The translations under genes were made by a program, and so were the position numbers. Below, one piece after another: positions 19,816 through 29,987 of a stretch of DNA of 64,000 nucleotides (the stretch's first letter is position 1; each line of letters starts with the position of its first letter). The stretch is from positions 1 through 64,000 of the forward strand of contig NZ_JAACYI010000006.1 of NCBI RefSeq assembly GCF_009996735.1. Direction: 5' to 3'. The notes under the pieces are model-generated. The model was not told the DNA's origin and did no database searches. It worked only from the letters and a program-made list of their open reading frames with translations. The stretch is from Cellulomonas sp. APG4. Its GTDB lineage: Bacteria > Actinomycetota > Actinomycetes > Actinomycetales > Cellulomonadaceae.

Positions 19816-19830
19816 GTGACGAGCCGTCAC
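19816..19830. promoter_or_regulatory. Palindrome GTGACG-AGC-CGTCAC upstream of cydA
   Basis: A perfect 6-bp inverted repeat with a 3-base centre lies six bases upstream of the DevR-like box. The GTGA...TCAC arms recall CRP/FNR sites, but the spacing is seven instead of six, so the cognate regulator is not identified. Confidence 0.4.
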
Positions 19831-19836
19831 GAAACC

Positions 19837-19850
19837 GGGACCAAGGTCCC
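19837..19850. promoter_or_regulatory. DevR/DosR-like box in the cydA promoter
   Basis: GGGACCAAGGTCCC is a perfect 14-bp palindrome and fits the core GGGAC-N4-GTCCC of the mycobacterial DosR consensus (TTSGGGACTWWAGTCCCSAA). The outer flanks (ACC and AGA) do not match. Its centre is about 43 bases upstream of the transcription start predicted from the TACCGT hexamer, the usual place for an activator overlapping the -35. The devS and devR genes lie at the end of the same locus. Confidence 0.65.
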
Positions 19851-19874
19851 AGAGACGTCCCATGACCCGCTCCG

Positions 19875-19880
19875 TACCGT
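19875..19880 (+). promoter_or_regulatory. Predicted cydA -10 element (TACCGT)
   Basis: TACCGT fits the TAnnnT pattern of actinobacterial -10 elements. No good -35 is seen at 17-18 bases, which suits a promoter that needs an activator. The start would fall near 19887, giving a 29-base leader that includes GGAGG. Confidence 0.45.
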
Positions 19881-19915
19881 CGGAGGACCCCGCATCGAGA
19901 ACCCCGGAGGCGAGC

Positions 19916-21415
19916 GTGGAGGCACTCGAGCTGGCCCGGTGGCAGTTCGGCATCACGACGGTGTACCACTTCATCCTGGTGCCGCTGACCATCGGCCTGT
20001 CCCCGCTCGTCGCGATCATGCAGACGGCATGGGTACGCACGGGCAACGAGCGCTGGCTGCGCCTGACGAAGTTCTTCGGCAAGCTCCTGCTCATCAACTT
20101 CGCGCTCGGCGTCGCGACCGGCATCGTCCAGGAGTTCCAGTTCGGGATGAACTGGAGCGAGTACTCGCGGTTCGTCGGCGACGTGTTCGGCGCGCCGCTC
20201 GCGATGGAGGCCCTCGCCGCCTTCTTCGTCGAGTCCACCTTCCTGGGGCTCTGGATCTTCGGCTGGGACAAGCTGCCCAAGCGCATCCACCTCGCGTGCA
20301 TCTGGGCCGTCGCGATCGCGACGACGCTCTCGGCCTACTTCATCCTCGCGGCGAACTCGTGGATGCAGCACCCCGTGGGCGCCGTGTTCAACACCGAGAC
20401 CGGCCGCGCCGAGATGGTGGACATCGGCGCCGTGCTGACGAACGTGACGCTGCTGGCCGCCTTCCCCCACACCATCACGGCCGCACTCCTGACGGGCGGC
20501 ACCTTCGTCGCGGGCATCGCCGCGTGGTGGATGGTGCGGCTCGTGCGTGCGGGTCGCGCCGAGGAAGCCCGTGACGTGTACCGCCCCGCCGTCATGCTCG
20601 GGGTGGTGACGATGATCGTCGCCGGGATCGGCATCGGCGCGAGCGGCGACTGGCAGGCCAAGCTGATGTTCGACCAGCAGCCGATGAAGATGGCGTCCGC
20701 CGAGGCGCTGTGCGAGAGCGAGGACGGTGCGTCGTTCTCGATCCTCACGATCGGCGACCTCAGCAACAGCTGCGACGGCGTCGCGCACGTCATCGAGATC
20801 CCCGGACTGACCTCCTACCTGGCCACCGGCGACTTCAGCGCACCGATCGAGGGCGTCGAGGACCTCCAGGCCCGCTACGAGGCCGAGTACGGCGAGGGCG
20901 TGGACTACCGCCCGAACCTTCTGGTCACGTACTGGAGCTTCCGCCTGATGATCGGCCTCGCGGCGGGCAGCGTCGCCCTCTCGCTCGCGGCGCTGTGGCT
21001 GACCCGCCGCGGGCGTGTCACGGGCAACGTGTGGTTCGCGCGCCTCGGCATCTGGGCGATCCCCATGCCGTTCCTCGCGTCGTCGTTCGGCTGGATCTTC
21101 ACCGAGATGGGTCGCCAGCCGTGGGTCGTCGTGCCCAACCCCAACCCGACGGGCGTCGACGGCGTCTGGATGCTCACCGCTCGCGGGGTCTCGACCGCCG
21201 TGGGCCCGGGTGCCGTGCTCGCGTCGATGATCACCTTCACCGTCATCTACGGGGTGCTGGGCGTGATCTGGTTCCGGCTGATCCGCCGCTACGCGGTGCA
21301 GGGCGTGGCCGACTCGGAGGTCGACCCGAGCCCCGACGGGCCGAACGGACGGCGCCCGGACCACCCCGACGAGCCCGACGACGCGTCCGACCGGCCGCTG
21401 TCCTTCGCGTACTGA
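19916..21415 (+). CDS. cydA: Cytochrome bd ubiquinol oxidase subunit I
   Basis: CydA carries the haems b558, b595 and d of the high-affinity quinol oxidase in the cytoplasmic membrane. The 499-residue protein starts VEALELARWQFG at a GTG with GGAGG six bases upstream, a better fit to the family than the ATG at 19862. Haem-ligand regions are visible: TTVYHFILVPLTIGLS (His18), AAFPHTITAALLTGG and the MGRQPWVV motif. The Q-loop is of the short type (about residues 250-310). The tail is acidic and hydrophilic. First gene of cydABDC-devS. Confidence 0.97.
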   Translation: MEALELARWQFGITTVYHFILVPLTIGLSPLVAIMQTAWVRTGNERWLRLTKFFGKLLLINFALGVATGIVQEFQFGMNWSEYSRFVGDVFGAPLAMEALAAFFVESTFLGLWIFGWDKLPKRIHLACIWAVAIATTLSAYFILAANSWMQHPVGAVFNTETGRAEMVDIGAVLTNVTLLAAFPHTITAALLTGGTFVAGIAAWWMVRLVRAGRAEEARDVYRPAVMLGVVTMIVAGIGIGASGDWQAKLMFDQQPMKMASAEALCESEDGASFSILTIGDLSNSCDGVAHVIEIPGLTSYLATGDFSAPIEGVEDLQARYEAEYGEGVDYRPNLLVTYWSFRLMIGLAAGSVALSLAALWLTRRGRVTGNVWFARLGIWAIPMPFLASSFGWIFTEMGRQPWVVVPNPNPTGVDGVWMLTARGVSTAVGPGAVLASMITFTVIYGVLGVIWFRLIRRYAVQGVADSEVDPSPDGPNGRRPDHPDEPDDASDRPLSFAY

Positions 21416-21425
21416 GGAGACGACC

Positions 21426-22445
21426 ATGGAGCTGTCGACCGTCTGGTTCATCCTCATCGCCGTGCTGTGGACCGGCTACCTCGTGCTCGAGGGCTTCGAC
21501 TTCGGCGTCGGCATGCTGCTGCCCGTGCTGGGCCGCGGCGACAAGGACCGCCGTCTGATGATCAACACCATCGGCCCGGTCTGGGACGGCAACGAGGTGT
21601 GGCTGCTCACCGCGGGTGGAGCGACCTTCGCCGCGTTCCCCGAGTGGTACGCGACGATGTTCTCGGGGTTCTACCTGCCACTGCTGCTGATCCTGCTCGC
21701 CCTCATCGTGCGGGTGGTCGCGTTCGAGTGGCGCGGCAAGATCGACGACCCCGCGTGGCGCGCCTGGGCCGACCGCGCCCTCGTCGTGGGGTCGTGGGTT
21801 CCCGCAGTGCTGTGGGGCGTCGCGTTCGGGAACCTCGTGCGGGGCGTGCACCTCGACGCCGACCACCAGTACGTGGGCACGTTCTTCGACCTGCTCAACC
21901 CCTACGCCCTGCTCGGCGGCGCGACCACGGGCCTGATCTTCCTCACCCACGGGGCCGTGTTCCTCGCGCTCAAGACCCAGGGCGACATGCGGCACGCCGC
22001 GGGCGCCCTCGCGCAGCGGCTCGCCCTGGTCACCGCGGGCGTCGCCGGGGCGTTCGCCGTGTGGACCCAGGTCGCGTACTCGGTGGGCTGGACGTGGGTC
22101 GCCACCGCGGTCGCCGCGGCCGGGCTCGCCGCCCTCGTCGTCACGACGCGGCTGCGCCGCGAGGGCCGGGCGTTCCTCGCGTCGGCCGTGACGATCGTCG
22201 CCGCCGTCGTGCTCATCTTCGGCTCGATGTACCCCGACGTGATGCCCGCTCTCGACCCGGCCAACTCGCTCACCGTGGACAACGCGTCGTCGACGCCGTA
22301 CACGCTCACGGTCATGACCTGGGTCGCCGTGGTCCTCACACCCGTGGTGCTGCTCTACCAGGGCTGGACCTACTGGGTGTTCCGCAAGCGGATCTCGACG
22401 GCCCACATCCCCGAGCACACCGGCCTCACGTTCGAGCGGGTGTGA
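21426..22445 (+). CDS. cydB: Cytochrome bd ubiquinol oxidase subunit II
   Basis: CydB is the 339-residue partner of CydA. It has about eight transmembrane helices and the family motifs LVLEGFDFGVGMLLP, NTIGPVWDGNEVWLL, GGATFAAFPEWYATMFSGFYLPL and FEWRGK. GGAGACGACC precedes the ATG, ten bases after the cydA stop. Its last codon and stop overlap the GTG start of cydD (GTGA), so assembly transporter and oxidase are made from one message. No short CydX-like frame is evident between cydB and cydD. Confidence 0.97.
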   Translation: MELSTVWFILIAVLWTGYLVLEGFDFGVGMLLPVLGRGDKDRRLMINTIGPVWDGNEVWLLTAGGATFAAFPEWYATMFSGFYLPLLLILLALIVRVVAFEWRGKIDDPAWRAWADRALVVGSWVPAVLWGVAFGNLVRGVHLDADHQYVGTFFDLLNPYALLGGATTGLIFLTHGAVFLALKTQGDMRHAAGALAQRLALVTAGVAGAFAVWTQVAYSVGWTWVATAVAAAGLAALVVTTRLRREGRAFLASAVTIVAAVVLIFGSMYPDVMPALDPANSLTVDNASSTPYTLTVMTWVAVVLTPVVLLYQGWTYWVFRKRISTAHIPEHTGLTFERV

Positions 22446-24127
22446 GGCCGCTCGACCCGCGCCTGCTGCGTCGCGCGCGCGACGCCCGCCGCTACGTCCT
22501 GCTCACGGCCGCGCTCGGTGGCCTCACCGCGGCGCTGGTCGTGGCCCAGGCGATGCTCCTCGCGCGCGCGCTCGCACCGGTGGTCGAGGGCACCGCGGCC
22601 TGGGGCGACGTCGCGGGGGTGATCGGCTGGCTCGCCCTCGTCGTCGCGGCCCGCGCGCTGGCCGTGGGGCTGCAGGAGCGCTGGGCGCACCGCGCGGCGA
22701 ACCGGACGATCGCCGACCTGCGCGGTCAGGTGCTCCGGCACGCCGTCGCGCTGGGACCGCGGCGCGACGGCGAGGGCCCGGCCCTCGCGACCCTCGTGAC
22801 ACGCGGTCTCGACGCCCTCGAGCCGTACTTCGTCCGGTACCTGCCCCAGCTCGTGCTCGCCGCGACGGTCACGCCGGCGACGCTCGCCGTCGTGCTCGGG
22901 CTGGACTGGATCGCGGCGGCCACGATCGCGTTCACGCTCCCGCTCGTACCCGTGTTCATGTGGCTCGTCGGGGTCGCGACGCAGACGTACGCCCAGCGGC
23001 GGCTCGTGGTGCTGCAGCGGCTGGGTGACCAGGTGCTCGACCTGCTCGCGGGCCTGCCCACCCTGCGCGCGTTCGGCCGCGAGCGAGGCCCCGCCGAACG
23101 TGTCCGCGCGCTCGGCGAGGCGCACGCGCGCGCGACCATGAGCACGCTCCGGGTCGCCTTCCTCTCGGGCATGGTGCTCGAGCTGCTGACCACGCTGTCG
23201 GTCGCACTGGTCGCCGTCGGCGTCGGGTTCCGTCTGGTCCACGGCGACCTCGACCTCCTGACCGGCCTCACCGTCCTCGTGCTGGCTCCCGAGGTGTTCG
23301 CACCCGTGCGGCAGGTCGGCACGCACTTCCACGCGTCGTCCGACGGCGTCGCGGCGGCCGAGCAGGCGTTCGACCTCCTCGAGCGCCCCACACCGCCCTC
23401 GGGCACGCTCGCGGCGCCCGACCTGCGGACGACGTCCGTGGCGCTCTCCGGGGTGGGGGTCGTCGCGCCCGGACGCGGTGCGCTCGCGCCCGCGGGCCTC
23501 GACCTCGACGTACGGCCCGGCTCGGTCGTCGCGCTCGCCGGCCCCAACGGCGTCGGCAAGACCACCGCGGCGCTCGTCGTCCTCGGGCTGCTCACCCCTG
23601 ACCAGGGCCGGGTGGTGCTGCAGCCGGCCGGCGCTCCTCCCGTGGACCTCGCCGACGTCGACCGCACCTCTTGGTGGGCGCAGACGGCCTGGGTCCCGCA
23701 GCGCCCGACTCTCCTGCCGGGCTCGCTCGCCGCAGCCGTCGCCGCGGACCGCGAGGTGGCCCCGGACGCGCGTGCCCGGGCGGCCCGGCTGACCGGTCTC
23801 GACGAGGTGGTCGCCGCGCGGGAGGACGGCTGGTCGCACGTGCTGGGCCACGGCGGAGCAGGGCTGAGCCTCGGTGAGCGCCAGCGCGTCGCGCTCACGC
23901 GCGCCCTCCTGGGCGACGAGCAGCTCGTGGTGCTGGACGAGCCGTCGGCCCACCTCGACCACGATGGCGCCGCCGTCGTGCACCGGGTGGTCGACGAGCT
24001 GCGACGGCAGGGCCGCACCGTGCTGCTGGTCGCCCACCGCCGCGAGCTCCTCGCGACCGCCGACGTCGTGGTGACCGTCGGCGCCTCGGCCACGGAACCC
24101 GCGCGCGAGGAGGGTCGGGATGACTGA
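22442..24127 (+). CDS. cydD: Cysteine/glutathione-type ABC exporter subunit CydD
   Basis: CydD, with CydC, forms the ABC transporter needed to assemble cytochrome bd; in E. coli it exports cysteine and glutathione. The 561-residue protein has an N-terminal six-helix domain (about 15-300) and a C-terminal ATPase with GPNGVGKTT (Walker A), LSLGERQRVALTRALL (signature, slightly divergent) and LVVLDEPSAHLD (Walker B). The GTG start overlaps the cydB stop. The reading frame is open much farther upstream, but that part is shadow of cydB. Confidence 0.95.
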   Translation: MRPLDPRLLRRARDARRYVLLTAALGGLTAALVVAQAMLLARALAPVVEGTAAWGDVAGVIGWLALVVAARALAVGLQERWAHRAANRTIADLRGQVLRHAVALGPRRDGEGPALATLVTRGLDALEPYFVRYLPQLVLAATVTPATLAVVLGLDWIAAATIAFTLPLVPVFMWLVGVATQTYAQRRLVVLQRLGDQVLDLLAGLPTLRAFGRERGPAERVRALGEAHARATMSTLRVAFLSGMVLELLTTLSVALVAVGVGFRLVHGDLDLLTGLTVLVLAPEVFAPVRQVGTHFHASSDGVAAAEQAFDLLERPTPPSGTLAAPDLRTTSVALSGVGVVAPGRGALAPAGLDLDVRPGSVVALAGPNGVGKTTAALVVLGLLTPDQGRVVLQPAGAPPVDLADVDRTSWWAQTAWVPQRPTLLPGSLAAAVAADREVAPDARARAARLTGLDEVVAAREDGWSHVLGHGGAGLSLGERQRVALTRALLGDEQLVVLDEPSAHLDHDGAAVVHRVVDELRRQGRTVLLVAHRRELLATADVVVTVGASATEPAREEGRDD

Positions 24128-25922
24128 GCCGTTCCGCACGCGCGTGCGCCGGGACCCCCTCGTGCGCGCCATCGCCCTGCTCGGGGTGCGCTGGCCCCGC
24201 GTCGCCCTCGCGGTCCTCACCGGCGCGGGGGCCCTCGGCAGCGCCGTCGCGCTCGCCGCCGTCTCCGCGTGGCTCATCGCGCGCGCGTCGCAGATGCCGC
24301 CCGTGCTGCACCTGTCCGTCGCGGCCGTCGCCGTGCGGACGTTCGGCATCTCGCGCGGGCTGCTGCGGTACCTGGAGCGCCTCGTCTCGCACGACCTCGC
24401 GCTGCGCGGCATGGCGCACCTGCGCACCGAGGTCTACCGCCGGCTGGCCGACGGCCGCACCGCGCCCCTCGTCGCCCTCCGTCGCGGTGACCTGCTCGGC
24501 ACCGTGGGCGCCGACGTCGACGCCGTCGGCGACGTCGTGGTGCGCGGCCTGCTGCCCGCGGCGGTCGCGGGCGTGGTGGGACTCGGCAGCGCGGTCCTCG
24601 TCGGCGTCCTGCTGCCCGCGGCCGGCGCGTGGCTCGCCCTGTGCCTGCTGCTCGCGGGCATCGTCGCGCCGTGGTGGGCGGTGCGCGCCGCACGTCGCAC
24701 CGAGCGGCGCGCGCGGGCCGCCCGCACCGAGGTGGACGCGCTGACGCTCACCGCGCTCGAGGGCGGGGCCGAGCTCGCGGTCGCGGGCCAGGTCGACCCT
24801 CTGCTCGACACTCTCGCTCGACGCGAGCGCGAGGTCGCGCGCGCGGTCGACGCGGGTGCGCGTCCCGCGGCGGTGGCGGCTGCGACGGGAACGGCGGCGA
24901 TGGGTCTCGCCGTGCTCGGCTCCCTCGTGCTGGGCATCCCCGCCACGGCCGCCGGAGCGCTCACGCCGGTCGAGCTCGCCGTCGTCGTCCTCACCCCGCT
25001 CGCGGCGTTCGAGGGTGCGGCTCTGCTGCCCGCCGCGGCCGTCCAGGTGCTGCGTTCGCACCACGCGGCCGCCCGCATCCTCGACCTGCTCGACGCCGCG
25101 GCGGAGCCGGTCCGCGCGGCATCCGTCCCGACGGCGCCCGGAGCCACGCCGTCGGGCGCGTCCGGCACGGGGGCGCAGACGCTGAGGGCGCGACGCCTCG
25201 CCTGCGCCTGGCCCGGCTCTCCGCCGGTGGTCCGGGGCCTCGACCTCGACATCGCCCCCGGGCGGCGGATCGCCCTGGTCGGCCCGAGCGGAGCCGGGAA
25301 GACGACGGTGCTGCTGACGCTCGCCGGCCTGCTCCCCCCGGCGGCGGGCTCGGTGACGCTCGACGGGCGGGACGTCGGTGCCCTCACACGTGCGGAGGCC
25401 GCCAGCGGCGTCGCGATGACGGCCGAGGACGCCCACGTCTTCGACACGACCGTGCTCGAGAACCTCCGCGTGGCCCGCGGCGACGTGACGCCCGACGAGG
25501 CGGCCGCCACCCTGGACGCCGTCGGGCTCGGTCCGTGGCTCGCGCGGCTGCCCGAGGGGCTCGACACGGTCCTCGGCCCCGACGCGCGACGCCTCTCCGG
25601 TGGCGAGAGGCGCCGCGTGCTGGTCGCCCGCGCACTCCTCGCCCCGGCGCCGCTGCTCCTCCTCGACGAGCCCACCGAGCACCTCGACGACGTCGACGGC
25701 GCCGTGCTGCGTGGCCTGCTCGACGGTTCGCTGACCCCGGGACGGGGTGTGCTGGTCGTCACGCACCGCCTCGCGGGCCTCGAGCGCGCGAGCGAGGTGA
25801 TCCTGCTGGACCGGACGGGTAGCGTGCGAGCACGCGGTACCCACGACGAGCTGCTGGCCTCCCCCGCGGCCGACGCCTACCGCGCCGCATGGCAGACCGA
25901 GGTGCACCAGGAGACCCGATGA
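24120..25922 (+). CDS. cydC: ABC exporter subunit CydC
   Basis: CydC is the second half of the CydDC exporter. The 600-residue protein has a membrane domain with VSAWLIARASQMPPVLHLSVA and FGISRGLLRYLERLVSHDLAL, both typical of CydC. Its ATPase has GPSGAGKTT, LSGGERRRVLVARALL and LLLLDEPTEHLDD. The start lies 8 bases inside cydD, and the stop overlaps the devS ATG (ATGA). A transporter and a sensor kinase are thus translationally coupled. Confidence 0.95.
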   Translation: MTEPFRTRVRRDPLVRAIALLGVRWPRVALAVLTGAGALGSAVALAAVSAWLIARASQMPPVLHLSVAAVAVRTFGISRGLLRYLERLVSHDLALRGMAHLRTEVYRRLADGRTAPLVALRRGDLLGTVGADVDAVGDVVVRGLLPAAVAGVVGLGSAVLVGVLLPAAGAWLALCLLLAGIVAPWWAVRAARRTERRARAARTEVDALTLTALEGGAELAVAGQVDPLLDTLARREREVARAVDAGARPAAVAAATGTAAMGLAVLGSLVLGIPATAAGALTPVELAVVVLTPLAAFEGAALLPAAAVQVLRSHHAAARILDLLDAAAEPVRAASVPTAPGATPSGASGTGAQTLRARRLACAWPGSPPVVRGLDLDIAPGRRIALVGPSGAGKTTVLLTLAGLLPPAAGSVTLDGRDVGALTRAEAASGVAMTAEDAHVFDTTVLENLRVARGDVTPDEAAATLDAVGLGPWLARLPEGLDTVLGPDARRLSGGERRRVLVARALLAPAPLLLLDEPTEHLDDVDGAVLRGLLDGSLTPGRGVLVVTHRLAGLERASEVILLDRTGSVRARGTHDELLASPAADAYRAAWQTEVHQETR

Positions 25923-27613
25923 CATCGATCCGTCAGCACCACGACGGGTCCCTCGCCGCGGCCGACCTGCTGCAGGCCGCCCTCGGGCTCGCGAGCGACC
26001 TCGACCTGCCGACCGTCCTCCAGCGGTTCGTCCAGGCCTCGGCAGACCTCACGGGTGCGCGCTACGCCGCGATCAACGTGCTCGACGCTCGCGGGCGGTC
26101 GACCACGTTCGTCCACACCGGCCTCGCACCCGAGCTCGCGCAGCTGCTCGGTCGGCCCCCGCACGCGATCGGCGTGCTCGCGGCGATCCCCGCGCACGGC
26201 ACCCTGCGGCTGGGCGACCTCATGGAGCACCCCACGTTCCGTGGCTTCCCGCCGCACCACCCGCCCATGGGTTCGTTCCTCGGCACCGCGGTGCGCGTGC
26301 GCGACCGGGTGTTCGGCTACCTCTACCTGTCGGAGAAGCCGGGCGGGTTCACGGACGAGGACGACGAGGCGGTGCTCACCCTCGCGGCCGCCGCGGCGGT
26401 GGCGATCCAGAACGCCCAGCTCTTCGCGCAGGCCGAGCACCGCGAGCGCTGGCTCCAGGCCGGCCAGCAGATCACCACGATGCTGCTCTCGGGTGCCGAC
26501 GAGGAGGACGTGCTCCAGCAGATCGCGGTGTCGTCCCGCGAGGTCGCGCGCGCCGACACGGCCGCTCTCGTGCTGCCGAGCACGGGCGACTCCCTGGTCA
26601 TGGAGATCGTCGACGGGGTCGGCGCCGACGAGCTGCTGGGCACGGTGATGCCGCCCGACGGGCGCGCCCGCACGGTGCTGCGTGACGGCAACGGCCTCGT
26701 GGTCGACTCGCTGTCGCGCAGCCGCGCGATGCGGGTCGAGGCGATGCGGCAGTTCGGCCCGGCGCTCTACGCCCCGATGCAGGCCGACGGCCGCGGCGTG
26801 GGCGTGCTCGTCCTGCTGCGCCGGGTGGGCTCGGCGCCGTTCGACCCGAGCGACCTCACGACCGCCGAGTCGTACGCCGGGCAGGCGGCGATCGCGCTCG
26901 TGCTCGCCGAGGCGCGGCACGCGCAGGACGTCGCCGCGCTGCTCGACGAGCGCGAGCGGATCGCGCGCGACCTGCACGACCTCGCGATCCAGCAGCTCTT
27001 CGCCACGGGCATGCAGCTCGAGACCGTCCGCAGGCGAGCGGCCCGCGGCGTCGACCCGTCCGAGCTCACCGGGATCGTCGAGGACGCCCTCGACAACGTC
27101 GACTCGACGGTGCGCCAGATCCGCTCGATCGTGCACGCGCTGCGCGACCCGGACGCCGCAGCCCCCCTCGCGGAACGCCTGCGCCGCGAGGCCTCCCTCG
27201 CGCGCACGGGCCTCGGTTTCGCGCCGTCGCTGGTCGTGACCGTGGACGGGCGGGTCCTCGACTCCGCCGACGCCCTCGAGGGGGACGCGGGGACGCTCGA
27301 CGACCGCGTGGGCGAGGACATGGCCGACGACGTCGTCGCCGTGGTGCGCGAGGGACTAGCGAACGCCGCACGGCACGCACGGGCGTCGTCCGTCGCGGTG
27401 CGCGTCGACCTCACGGGCGAGGCCCCGGACGGACGGATCACCGTCGAGGTCGAGGACGACGGCGCGGGCCTGCCGCCCGCGCGCGAGCGCAGGTCCGGCA
27501 CGGACAACCTCGCGGCCCGTTCACGCCGGCACGGCGGCTCGTTCACGCTCGGCACGAGCGCCGAGGGCCGCGGCACCCTCCTCGCCTGGCAGGCACCGCT
27601 GCGTTCGCACTGA
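25919..27613 (+). CDS. devS: DevS/DosS-like GAF sensor histidine kinase
   Basis: The 564-residue cytosolic kinase has two GAF domains (about 28-168 and 185-330) and a HisKA_3 dimerisation helix (ERERIARDLHDLAIQQLF, His353). A HATPase domain carries VVREGLANAARHA and VEDDGAGLP. The first GAF shares GFPPHHPPM...FLG..VRVRD..FG.LYL.EK with mycobacterial DosS/DosT, where a His in this region ligates the sensing haem (here His113/114). A haem-based oxygen or redox sensor is therefore likely. GGAG lies upstream of the ATG. The HATPase region has a roughly 25-residue insertion after residue 425. Its partner devR is convergent, six bases away. Confidence 0.88.
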   Translation: MTSIRQHHDGSLAAADLLQAALGLASDLDLPTVLQRFVQASADLTGARYAAINVLDARGRSTTFVHTGLAPELAQLLGRPPHAIGVLAAIPAHGTLRLGDLMEHPTFRGFPPHHPPMGSFLGTAVRVRDRVFGYLYLSEKPGGFTDEDDEAVLTLAAAAAVAIQNAQLFAQAEHRERWLQAGQQITTMLLSGADEEDVLQQIAVSSREVARADTAALVLPSTGDSLVMEIVDGVGADELLGTVMPPDGRARTVLRDGNGLVVDSLSRSRAMRVEAMRQFGPALYAPMQADGRGVGVLVLLRRVGSAPFDPSDLTTAESYAGQAAIALVLAEARHAQDVAALLDERERIARDLHDLAIQQLFATGMQLETVRRRAARGVDPSELTGIVEDALDNVDSTVRQIRSIVHALRDPDAAAPLAERLRREASLARTGLGFAPSLVVTVDGRVLDSADALEGDAGTLDDRVGEDMADDVVAVVREGLANAARHARASSVAVRVDLTGEAPDGRITVEVEDDGAGLPPARERRSGTDNLAARSRRHGGSFTLGTSAEGRGTLLAWQAPLRSH

Positions 27614-27619
27614 GCCGGC

Positions 27620-28294
27620 TCAGTCCTCGCTCGGACGCCAGGCGCTGCGCTTGTGGCCCGCGACCCAGGCAGCGGCCTGGGTGCGTCGCTGCAGGCCCAT
27701 CTTCGCCAGCAGCGACGTGATGTGGTTCTTCACGGTCTTCTCGGCGACGCCCAGACGCTCCGCGATCTCGCGGTTCGACATGCCCTCGCCGATGAGGTCG
27801 AGGACCTTGCGCTCGCTCGGCGTGAGCTCGGACGTCGGGTCGTCGTGGCCCGCACGCCGTCGGGTCACGGTGCGCTCGTCGAGCAGCGTGCGACCGGCCG
27901 CCACCTGACGGATCACGTCGGCGATCTCGGCACCGCGCACCGTCTTGAGCACGTACGCCGCCGCACCTGCCTGCAGCGCCGCGGCGAGGGCGTCGTCGTC
28001 GTCGAACGACGTGAGGACGATCGCTCGGGTCTCCGGGAGCGTCTCTCGCAGGGCCGTCATGAGGTCGATCCCCGTGCCGTCGGGCATCTGCAGGTCGACG
28101 AGCATGACCTGCGGGCGCACGAGGTTGGCGCGCCTGATCCCCTCGGCCACCGAACCGGCCTCGGCGATGACCCCCATGCCCTCGCTGCGGTCGATCACCT
28201 CCGCGATCCCCCGTCGGACCACCTCGTGGTCGTCGACGATCATCACGGCGATGTCAGTGTGCCCGGACGCGGCGGGCGGGACGTTGGCTGCCAC
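27620..28294 (-). CDS. devR: DevR/DosR-like response regulator (NarL/FixJ family)
   Basis: The 224-residue regulator has a receiver domain (MIVDDHEVVRRGI, phospho-acceptor Asp67 in MLVDLQMPDGTG, Lys in AYVLKTVRGAE) and a LuxR-type helix-turn-helix. The latter, SNREIAERLGVAEKTVKNHI with LLAKMGLQRRTQAA, closely resembles DosR, which binds GGGAC-N4-GTCCC. The GTG start has TAGGAT six bases upstream, overlapping the mutM stop, so the transcript may be leaderless. The gene is convergent with devS, and TGAGCCGGCTCA links the two stops. It probably controls the cydA box at 19837. Confidence 0.88.
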   Translation of the reverse strand: MAANVPPAASGHTDIAVMIVDDHEVVRRGIAEVIDRSEGMGVIAEAGSVAEGIRRANLVRPQVMLVDLQMPDGTGIDLMTALRETLPETRAIVLTSFDDDDALAAALQAGAAAYVLKTVRGAEIADVIRQVAAGRTLLDERTVTRRRAGHDDPTSELTPSERKVLDLIGEGMSNREIAERLGVAEKTVKNHITSLLAKMGLQRRTQAAAWVAGHKRSAWRPSED

Positions 28295-28303
28295 GGGCCA
28301 ATC

Positions 28304-29248
28304 CTAGGGAACGCGCGCCCCCAGGGCCGAACCCGGCGCCGCGTGGCGTGGCGGACGCCGCTGGCAGCGGGGGCACGTGAACGACGAGCGGTTCATGAAC
28401 GGCGTGCGCACCACGGGTGTGCCGCAGCGCGGGCAGGGCCGCCCGTGCTGCCCGTAGACCGCCAGGGCCCGGTCGAAGTAGCCCGAGGAGCCGTTGACGT
28501 CGACGTAGAGCGCGTCGAAGCTCGTGCCGCCGACACGCAGGGCGGAGCGCATCACGTCTGCCGCGGCGTCGAGGAGACGGGCGACGTCGCTCGGGCGGAG
28601 CCTGTCCGTCTGCCGTGCGAAGTGCAGCCGGGCGCGCCACAGGGCCTCGTCGGCGTAGATGTTGCCGATCCCCGACACGAGCGTCTGGTCGAGGAGCGCG
28701 CGCTTGACGTCGGTGCGACGTCGACGCAGGCCGCGGACGAGGGCCGCGCGGTCGAGGTGGGGGTCGAGGAGGTCACGCGCGATGTGGGCGACCGGCGTCG
28801 GCACGGCCGCGAGCCCGGAGCCGTGCCCACCCGGGGCGCCGTCGGCGGTGGGCACGAGGTCGGTCACCGCGAGGTGGCCGAACGTGCGCTGGTCCACGAA
28901 GTCGAGGCTCGCGACCGGCCCCTCGTCCAGGTGGATCCTGGCGCGCAGGTGCGGGTGCCCGACCGGGGATGCGGCGCGTCCGCGCACGAGCAGCTGACCG
29001 CTCATGCCCAGGTGCGCCATGAGCGCGTCGTCCTGCGCCGCGTCGTCCAGGACGAGCCAGAGGAACTTGCCGCGCCGGACGGCGGCCGTGAGCGTGCGGC
29101 CCTCGAGCCGGCCACGGAAGTCGGCGGCGCCGCCCTCGTGGCGGCGCACGCTCGAGTCACGACGCACCTCGACGTCGCGCACCCGTGCGCCGACCAGGTG
29201 CCGCGCGAGGCCGTCCCGGACGGTCTCGACCTCGGGGAGCTCGGGCAC
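28304..29248 (-). CDS. mutM: Formamidopyrimidine-DNA glycosylase
   Basis: MutM (Fpg) removes 8-oxoguanine and formamidopyrimidines. The 314-residue protein starts at a GTG giving [13 protein letters not shown], in which Pro2 is the catalytic N-terminus after Met removal. The helix-two-turn-helix ([17 protein letters not shown]) and the C-terminal zinc finger (CPRCGT...CPRC) are intact. The start is one base after the rnc stop. The rnc-mutM order is common in Gram-positive bacteria. Confidence 0.96.
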
Positions 29249-29249
29249 G

Positions 29250-29987
29250 TCAGCCCTCGGTGGCCACCGGGCCGACGGGCGCCCCCGCGGCCTCCTGCAG
29301 GGCACGGTAGGCGTCGGCCGCGGCCTCCTGCTCCGCGACCTTCTTGGCCGTGCCGGTCCCGGTGCCGACGACGTCCCCGTCGAGGACGATCTGCGCGGTG
29401 AAGGTGCGCGCGTGGTCCGGTCCCTCGCCCTCGCACCGGTACTCGGGCACGCCGCGCCCCAGACGGGCCGTGAGCTCCTGGAGCGACGTCTTCCAGTCCA
29501 GGCCGGCACCCAGGTCCGCCGCGTTGGCGAGCGTGTCCTCGACCAGCCGTGCGACGACCTCCCGCGCCGGCTCGAGACCGTGCGTCAGGTACACGGCGCC
29601 GAACAGCGCCTCGAGCGTGTCGGACAGGATCGAGTCCTTGTCCCGGCCACCGGTCGCGAGCTCGCCCTTGCCCAGCAGCAGGTAGGCGCCGAGGTCGAGC
29701 TCGCGCGCGATCGCGGCGAGGGAACGCTGCGACACGGTTGCCGCACGCATCTTCGCGAGCTCGCCCTCCGACAGCTCGGGGTGACGGCGGTAGAGCGTCT
29801 CGGTCACGACGAGACCCAGCACCGTGTCGCCCAGGAACTCGAGGCGTTCGTTCGTGGGGATGCCTCCGGCCTCGTGCGCGAACGACCGATGGGTCAGGGA
29901 CAGCACGAGAAGCTCGGGGTCCAGGTGGACCCCGAGCTTCTCGACGAGCTGGGCAGGCGGTGTCGCGGACGGGCCTGCGTCACGCAC
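29250..29987 (-). CDS. rnc: Ribonuclease III
   Basis: RNase III cleaves double-stranded RNA in rRNA maturation. The 245-residue protein has the catalytic signature [16 protein letters not shown], the second acidic motif [15 protein letters not shown] and a C-terminal dsRNA-binding domain (DWKTSLQEL ... [16 protein letters not shown]). The GTG start is three bases after the rpmF stop. It belongs to the rsmD-coaD-...-rpmF-rnc-mutM run. Confidence 0.97.

Follow-up and report, generated by a model that had tools for sequence, protein, structure and literature searches.

A DosR-type box upstream of a cytochrome bd operon that includes a DosS-like kinase gene in Cellulomonas sp. APG4

Results

A DosS-like kinase gene occupies fifth place in the cyd operon

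Within the window, by which we mean the whole 64-kb stretch of Cellulomonas sp. APG4 DNA that was analysed, cydA, cydB, cydD and cydC form a single gene run followed by devS, a gene for a DosS-like kinase (Table 1). Domain searches and gene boundaries both identify a cydABDC operon: cydA and cydB are separated by 10 bases, cydB and cydD overlap by GTGA, cydD and cydC overlap by 8 bases, and cydC and devS overlap by ATGA. The gene for a DosR-like response regulator, devR, converges on devS, the two frames ending 6 bases apart (27613 and 27620). The frame upstream of devR, which we take to be mutM from its N-terminal motif, probably has its true start further in and possibly shares a transcript with devR.

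The GTG at 19916 is the most likely cydA start, since the relatives compared mostly start there and TACCGT would otherwise lie inside the gene. A further ATG, at 19862, precedes TACCGT; at the point corresponding to 19916, these relatives mostly have GTG or ATG followed by GAx-GCx. For devS, the ATG at 25889 is a possible alternative start. The best named relative of CydA is from a Cellulomonas sp. (79% identity). The same genome has a second, diverged cydA-like match (G000:C11:164977-166068; 48% identity).

Table 1. Features of the cydABDC-devS locus (positions in the window) and linked short kinases in relatives
Feature	Position or locus	Strand	Remarks
Inverted repeat GTGAC-N5-GTCAC	19816..19830	no strand	second conserved element, upstream of the box
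DevR/DosR-type box GGGACCAAGGTCCC	19837..19850	no strand	fits GGGAC-N4-GTCCC; conserved in relatives
Probable -10 hexamer TACCGT	19875..19880	+	starts 24 bases after the box; spacing kept in relatives
cydA, cytochrome bd subunit I	19916..21415	+	PF01654, E 2.4e-159; likely start GTG 19916
cydB, cytochrome bd subunit II	21426..22445	+	TIGR00203 above cut-off; also PF02322
cydD	22442..24127	+	TIGR02857 above cut-off; start GTG 22442 overlaps cydB stop
cydC	24120..25922	+	TIGR02868 above cut-off; start ATG 24120
devS, DosS-like kinase	25919..27613	+	Pfam; likely start ATG 25919, overlapping cydC stop
devR, DosR-like response regulator	27620..28294	-	receiver and GerE domains; convergent with devS
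mutM-like frame	28304..29509	-	open reading frame, 9 bases upstream of devR
Short cyd-linked kinases without haem GAF, box kept	L145, L148, L153, L159, L162, L166, L177, L178, L182, L184, L185, L187, L202

DevS and DevR resemble the mycobacterial DosS/DosT-DosR system

DevS has the Pfam domain order GAF-GAF-HisKA_3-HATPase_c, as in DosS and DosT. Its best solved relative is the GAF domain of mycobacterial DevS (E 5.9e-32), and it has a single other match in its own genome, a weak one (E 4.5e-4). The haem-ligand histidine of DosS, which we take to be H149, has an aligned histidine in the first GAF domain (GAF-A) of DevS, in the motif HHPPM, an alignment checked by the spacing to two other residues. 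At the residue that we presume to be aligned to Glu87 of DosS and Gly85 of DosT, DevS differs from both in having Asn. Among the 42 full-length kinases linked to cyd operons in relatives, described below, 41 have the Asn and 41 keep the haem-ligand histidine, the exception for the histidine being G020.

DevR, like DosR, combines a receiver domain with a LuxR-type helix-turn-helix (GerE) domain, and its best solved relative is mycobacterial DevR (E 5.5e-54). Although DevR has 30 matches in its own genome at E 0.001 or better, its recognition helix, EKTVKN, which is common to DosR, is missing from the seven next-best regulators of this genome. No box with 0-1 mismatch was found near devR in the window, and in relatives a box lies within 300 bases upstream of devR in 2 of 49 cases. 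A TAGGAT just before the devR GTG could be the gene's own promoter. The mutM-like frame and devR, very close together here, are separated by some 50-120 bases in many relatives, while elsewhere the gap reaches about 1 kb or more.

A DosR-type box lies at a fixed distance from the probable -10 hexamer of cydA

The box upstream of cydA consists of 6-base arms, GGGACC and GGTCCC, around a central AA. When the 400-base region preceding cydA was shuffled 5000 times with dinucleotides preserved, an exact box arose in 36 of the shuffles and one with 0-1 mismatch in 630. Across the genome (3.74 Mb in 48 contigs), the exact pattern has 19 matches versus 5 for the reversed pattern, and hand arithmetic from base composition alone gives an expectation of about 20. 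Since the genome count equals this expectation, the pattern is informative by its place and its conservation only.

These observations bear out most of what an earlier note had read from the letters of this DNA: cydA, B, D, C and a kinase gene with overlapping frames and a gap only between cydA and cydB, the kinase gene as part of the cyd operon, a regulator gene converging on it, a DosS-like kinase with a DosR-like regulator, and TACCGT 24 bases beyond the box. The box had also been called a perfect palindrome; its coordinates and its fit to GGGAC-N4-GTCCC hold, but the central AA is not self-complementary.

The box is conserved in relatives with a cyd-linked devS

The same GTDB family comprised 150 genomes, 146 of them with a CydA match, and 120 of those loci were taken. 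Ten were too short for linkage to be judged. The remaining 110 divide into 42 in which cydA is followed on the same strand by a full-length devS, 14 with a short devS and 54 with no devS. A box (0-1 mismatch, at most 300 bases upstream of cydA) is present in 40/42, 14/14 and 19/54 of these classes, respectively. The earlier note had staked its reading on conservation of the box in related cydA promoters, which is borne out by 54 of the 56 devS-linked operons; the reversed-pattern control matches 3/56 linked and 0/54 unlinked loci. Linked operons occur in 11 of the 24 judged genera, and none of these genera is mixed. Thus the arrangement, which had been described as a feature of this organism, is not peculiar to it.

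The position of the box relative to the hexamer is also conserved. Of the 54 boxed linked loci, 53 have a TANNNT, most often TAGCGT, that starts 22-24 bases beyond the box, compared with 1/756 in other windows of equal width. The sole linked boxed locus lacking this spacing (L121) is one of three g1 loci, with L111 and L118, that were counted as boxed on GGGACCTC(C/G)GACCC, probably not the true site. L111 and L118 are among the ten unjudged loci. The box-to-start-codon distance varies from 65 to 145 in relatives, and the spacer is poorly conserved.

Fourteen of the linked kinases, in five genera, have no GAF-A match, and their cydA promoters keep the box (Table 1), so the layout does not depend on haem sensing. 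In G012 the match to the short linked kinase is divided between two frames, and the gene may be disrupted or contain a sequencing error.

Of the 150 family genomes, 70 encode a close DevR (E 1e-60 or better). Among the 120 loci, the box is present at cydA in 63 of 67 with a close DevR versus 18 of 53 without, and 16 of these 18 belong to three genera, g8, g11 and g23. In the eight genomes of these genera that were searched, a DosR-type regulator of lower similarity (43-45% identity) is encoded that has an identical EKTVKN helix, and for seven of the eight there is a DevS-like match nearby. A quick CydA tree of 121 rows requires two changes in the presence of DevR and three in linkage. Given so few changes, the contrasts by DevR and by linkage rest on two to three independent pairs, are not replicated and carry no p-value; the DevR contrast is nearly a contrast of one clade with the rest. 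For the same reason we do not claim co-evolution of the box and devS linkage.

Relatives without a linked devS mostly carry a Rex-type operator

In Streptomyces, cydABCD is controlled by the NADH/NAD+-sensing repressor Rex through TTGTGAA-N4-TTCACAA (PMC5355995). The target operon is the same as the one considered here, and with up to three mismatches the Streptomyces type of operator is found at cydA in 49 of the 54 family operons without devS versus 2 of the 56 with devS. With up to two mismatches, it is present in 2 of 67 loci with a close DevR versus 49 of 53 without. Thus, in relatives that lack devS in the operon, the cydA promoter has in most cases a Rex-type operator instead. A Rex-type protein above the family cut-off is encoded in 129 of the 150 genomes, including that of Cellulomonas sp. 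APG4, so the difference between the two groups lies mainly in the operator. No Rex-type operator is visible by eye upstream of cydA in Cellulomonas sp. APG4, where the promoter has the DosR-type box.

All 16 boxed g8, g11 and g23 loci also have a Rex-type site. These loci (for example, L140, L135 and L122) thus combine a DosR-type box and a Rex-type operator at cydA with no linked devS, and their promoters are possible intermediates of a change from one type of control to the other.

A second inverted repeat accompanies the box

The GTGAC-N5-GTCAC repeat has three sites across the genome and none for the reversed control. In many g1, g2, g13, g16 and g20 loci, an element of the GAC-N5-GTC type precedes the box by about 10 bases, and in g25 such an element lies downstream of the -10. 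We considered the repeat as a second DevR box and rejected this, as its spacing is off by one base and the g25 element is downstream of the -10; binding by another regulator is more likely.

The arrangement extends beyond the family, and the box is rare at mycobacterial cydA loci

Of the best 80 named CydA loci, 62 could be judged and 18 could not. The box is present in 14 of 15 judged loci with a linked kinase, of which at least four (L006, L009, L011 and L016) belong to the family, versus 11 of 47 without; the reversed pattern is found in 1/15 and 1/47. Six of the linked loci are from Pseudonocardiales (Longimycelium, Amycolatopsis, Prauserella, Saccharothrix and two Lentzea). In each of the six the box is exact, the kinase match begins only at residue 187-189, and the opposite strand carries a gene for a regulator of 50-54% identity. 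The arrangement is therefore also present in some other actinobacteria. Among mycobacterial cydA loci, 2 of 19 have a box.

A box upstream of ctaC is conserved, with little sign of a wider regulon

The other 18 exact genomic sites and 11 sites one mismatch from GGGACCWWGGTCCC, one of which was not re-found, were assigned to genes with a crude GC3-based guess. No coherent hypoxia regulon emerged around these sites, several of which are inside genes. Ten neighbouring proteins, classified by Pfam, comprise ArsA, ArsD, two solute-binding types, an AMP-binding enzyme, a TetR protein, a YwiC-like protein, COX2 (ctaC), a class V aminotransferase and GAPDH.

The box upstream of ctaC, which encodes the COX2-domain protein, a part of the aa3 oxidase, has one mismatch (G000:C33:67729-67742, L234). 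A TAGGCT hexamer starts 16 bases before it, so the box probably falls a little beyond the transcription start, a position from which binding would repress. In 40 of the 144 ctaC loci of relatives, which were taken for comparison, a box with 0-1 mismatch is present in 30 of 33 genomes from genera with a full-length linked devS, 0 of 2 from g19 and 0 of 5 others (reversed pattern, 0/40), and in all 30 the hexamer is 15-18 bases upstream. Nine of the ten remaining loci have an element at the same place with 2-3 mismatches, including loci of g7, g8, g21 and g23, four genera without a close DevR. We therefore do not take the ctaC box as proof of DevR action; the element either predates the cyd-linked DevR or is independent of it. 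Control of ctaC by DosR-type proteins in general is possible, since regulators with the same helix are encoded in genomes of those genera.

The YwiC-like gene (G000:C43:114505-114518, L229) has the layout of cydA, with a box, 22 bases and TAGCGT. Of 24 other loci, 4 have a box (0-1 mismatch) near the start, and in one of these 4 a hexamer is suitably placed. We set it aside as a general target because the box is rarely conserved there; it is a lineage-specific candidate only.

Discussion

Our comparison suggests that the cytochrome bd operon of Cellulomonas sp. APG4 is under a two-component system of the DosSR type that acts through the box upstream of cydA, with feedback through the kinase only, a reading we consider likely. 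Its core, a DevR box at cydA and a kinase gene within the operon, is well supported by comparative anatomy. In this model, DevS would sense low O2 or NO/CO through its haem-type GAF domain and phosphorylate DevR, and DevR~P would then bind the box and activate cydA-cydB-cydD-cydC-devS as a class II activator. Assuming a transcription start 6-8 bases after the hexamer, the box centre would lie near -42, the position expected for this class. With devS as the last gene of the transcript, activation would raise the kinase together with the oxidase. DevR would be supplied from elsewhere, probably from the mutM side, and since there is no box near devR, the predicted feedback runs through the kinase but not the regulator. 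The earlier note had proposed a positive loop through the co-transcribed kinase. The presence of devS in the boxed operon fits this proposal, which needs to be narrowed to a loop that omits devR. In general, the observations in that note are confirmed, while its interpretation is supported for the operon kinase and the box conservation and not for uniqueness or the full loop.

Other explanations for the box have to be weighed against this reading. NarL-type regulators are numerous in this genome, and the 16 boxed loci of g8, g11 and g23 have no close DevR. The protein that binds the box could thus be a different NarL/LuxR-type regulator, or a repressor, with DevSR acting on other targets. We think this unlikely, given the EKTVKN helix of the distant DosR-type regulators in the eight genomes of those genera that were searched, its absence from the next-best regulators here, and a fixed box-to-hexamer distance that suits an activator. 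A chance match is suggested by the number of exact sites in the genome and by the frequency of near matches in shuffled sequence, but is highly improbable in view of the conservation of the box and its spacing in relatives of 11 genera.

It is slightly less probable than binding by another NarL/LuxR-type regulator that the operon is mainly under Rex, a CRP-type protein or the factor that binds GTGAC-N5-GTCAC, with DevR only modulating expression. Rex is encoded in the genome, the repeat is rare there and conserved in several genera, and in M. smegmatis cydA is under Crp control (PMC7739888). Against a main role for Rex, its operator type is nearly confined to operons without devS and is not apparent by eye at this cydA. 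We favour control of the operon by DevR as the working model.

The mycobacterial devR-devS genes are co-transcribed and autoregulated, so positive feedback as such is not new. The circuit shares with mycobacterial DosS/DosT-DosR the kinase domain order, the haem-ligand histidine, the EKTVKN helix and the GGGAC-N4-GTCCC box. It differs in that the kinase gene is in the cyd operon and devR is convergent with it, with no box nearby. This suggests a low-oxygen circuit that is self-reinforcing and wired unlike the mycobacterial one. The contrast with Mycobacterium drawn in the earlier note is supported for M. smegmatis, where hypoxia induction of cydA was similar in a devR mutant and the wild type (given as "data not shown" in PMC7739888), and by the scarcity of boxes at mycobacterial cydA loci.

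Two-component control of the balance between oxidases has precedents. ArcAB of E. coli governs the bo/bd balance, and for HrrSA of Corynebacterium glutamicum the kinase gene is outside the oxidase operon. HrrSA controls the balance of aa3-type and bd oxidases and differs from the system proposed here in being haem-responsive and in prioritising the bc1-aa3 branch (PMC7337898). OsdK-OsdR of Streptomyces coelicolor is likewise a DosR-type system with a related palindromic box, for which the consensus AGGGCCGATCGGCCCT was reported; the main text of the report makes no mention of "cyd" (PMC5069765). Among the titles and abstracts listed by searches of open-licence PMC papers, none describes a devS linked to cyd or a DevR box in a cydA promoter.

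The placement of the ctaC box hints at reciprocal control of ctaC and cyd, which we put forward as a hypothesis. More tentatively, we can envisage a reciprocal oxidase switch in which DevR~P would activate cydABDC-devS as a class II activator and repress ctaC by binding shortly downstream of its -10, with feedback through the kinase only. Such a switch might take the place of Rex control of cyd in about half of the sampled genera of the family, and in one sub-lineage the haem domain might have been lost with the DNA logic retained. This broader picture is possible but decidedly less secure than control of the cyd operon by DevR.

If DevR does act at cydA, DosSR, known mainly as a mycobacterial dormancy regulator, may elsewhere in actinobacteria be a direct respiratory switch with its sensor inside the controlled operon. 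Our data also suggest that cyd promoters within one family differ in the sensor they answer to, an NADH sensor (Rex) or a haem-type gas sensor (DevS). The locus offers a testable model in soil bacteria that are harmless, with one promoter, one regulator and one box, together with natural relatives in which cydA has a Rex-type site alone or both sites, or in which the kinase lacks the haem domain.

A separate observation concerns locus L132 of G020, in which the linked DevS is without the haem-ligand histidine and the box at cydA has degenerated; the circuit may have been lost naturally there.
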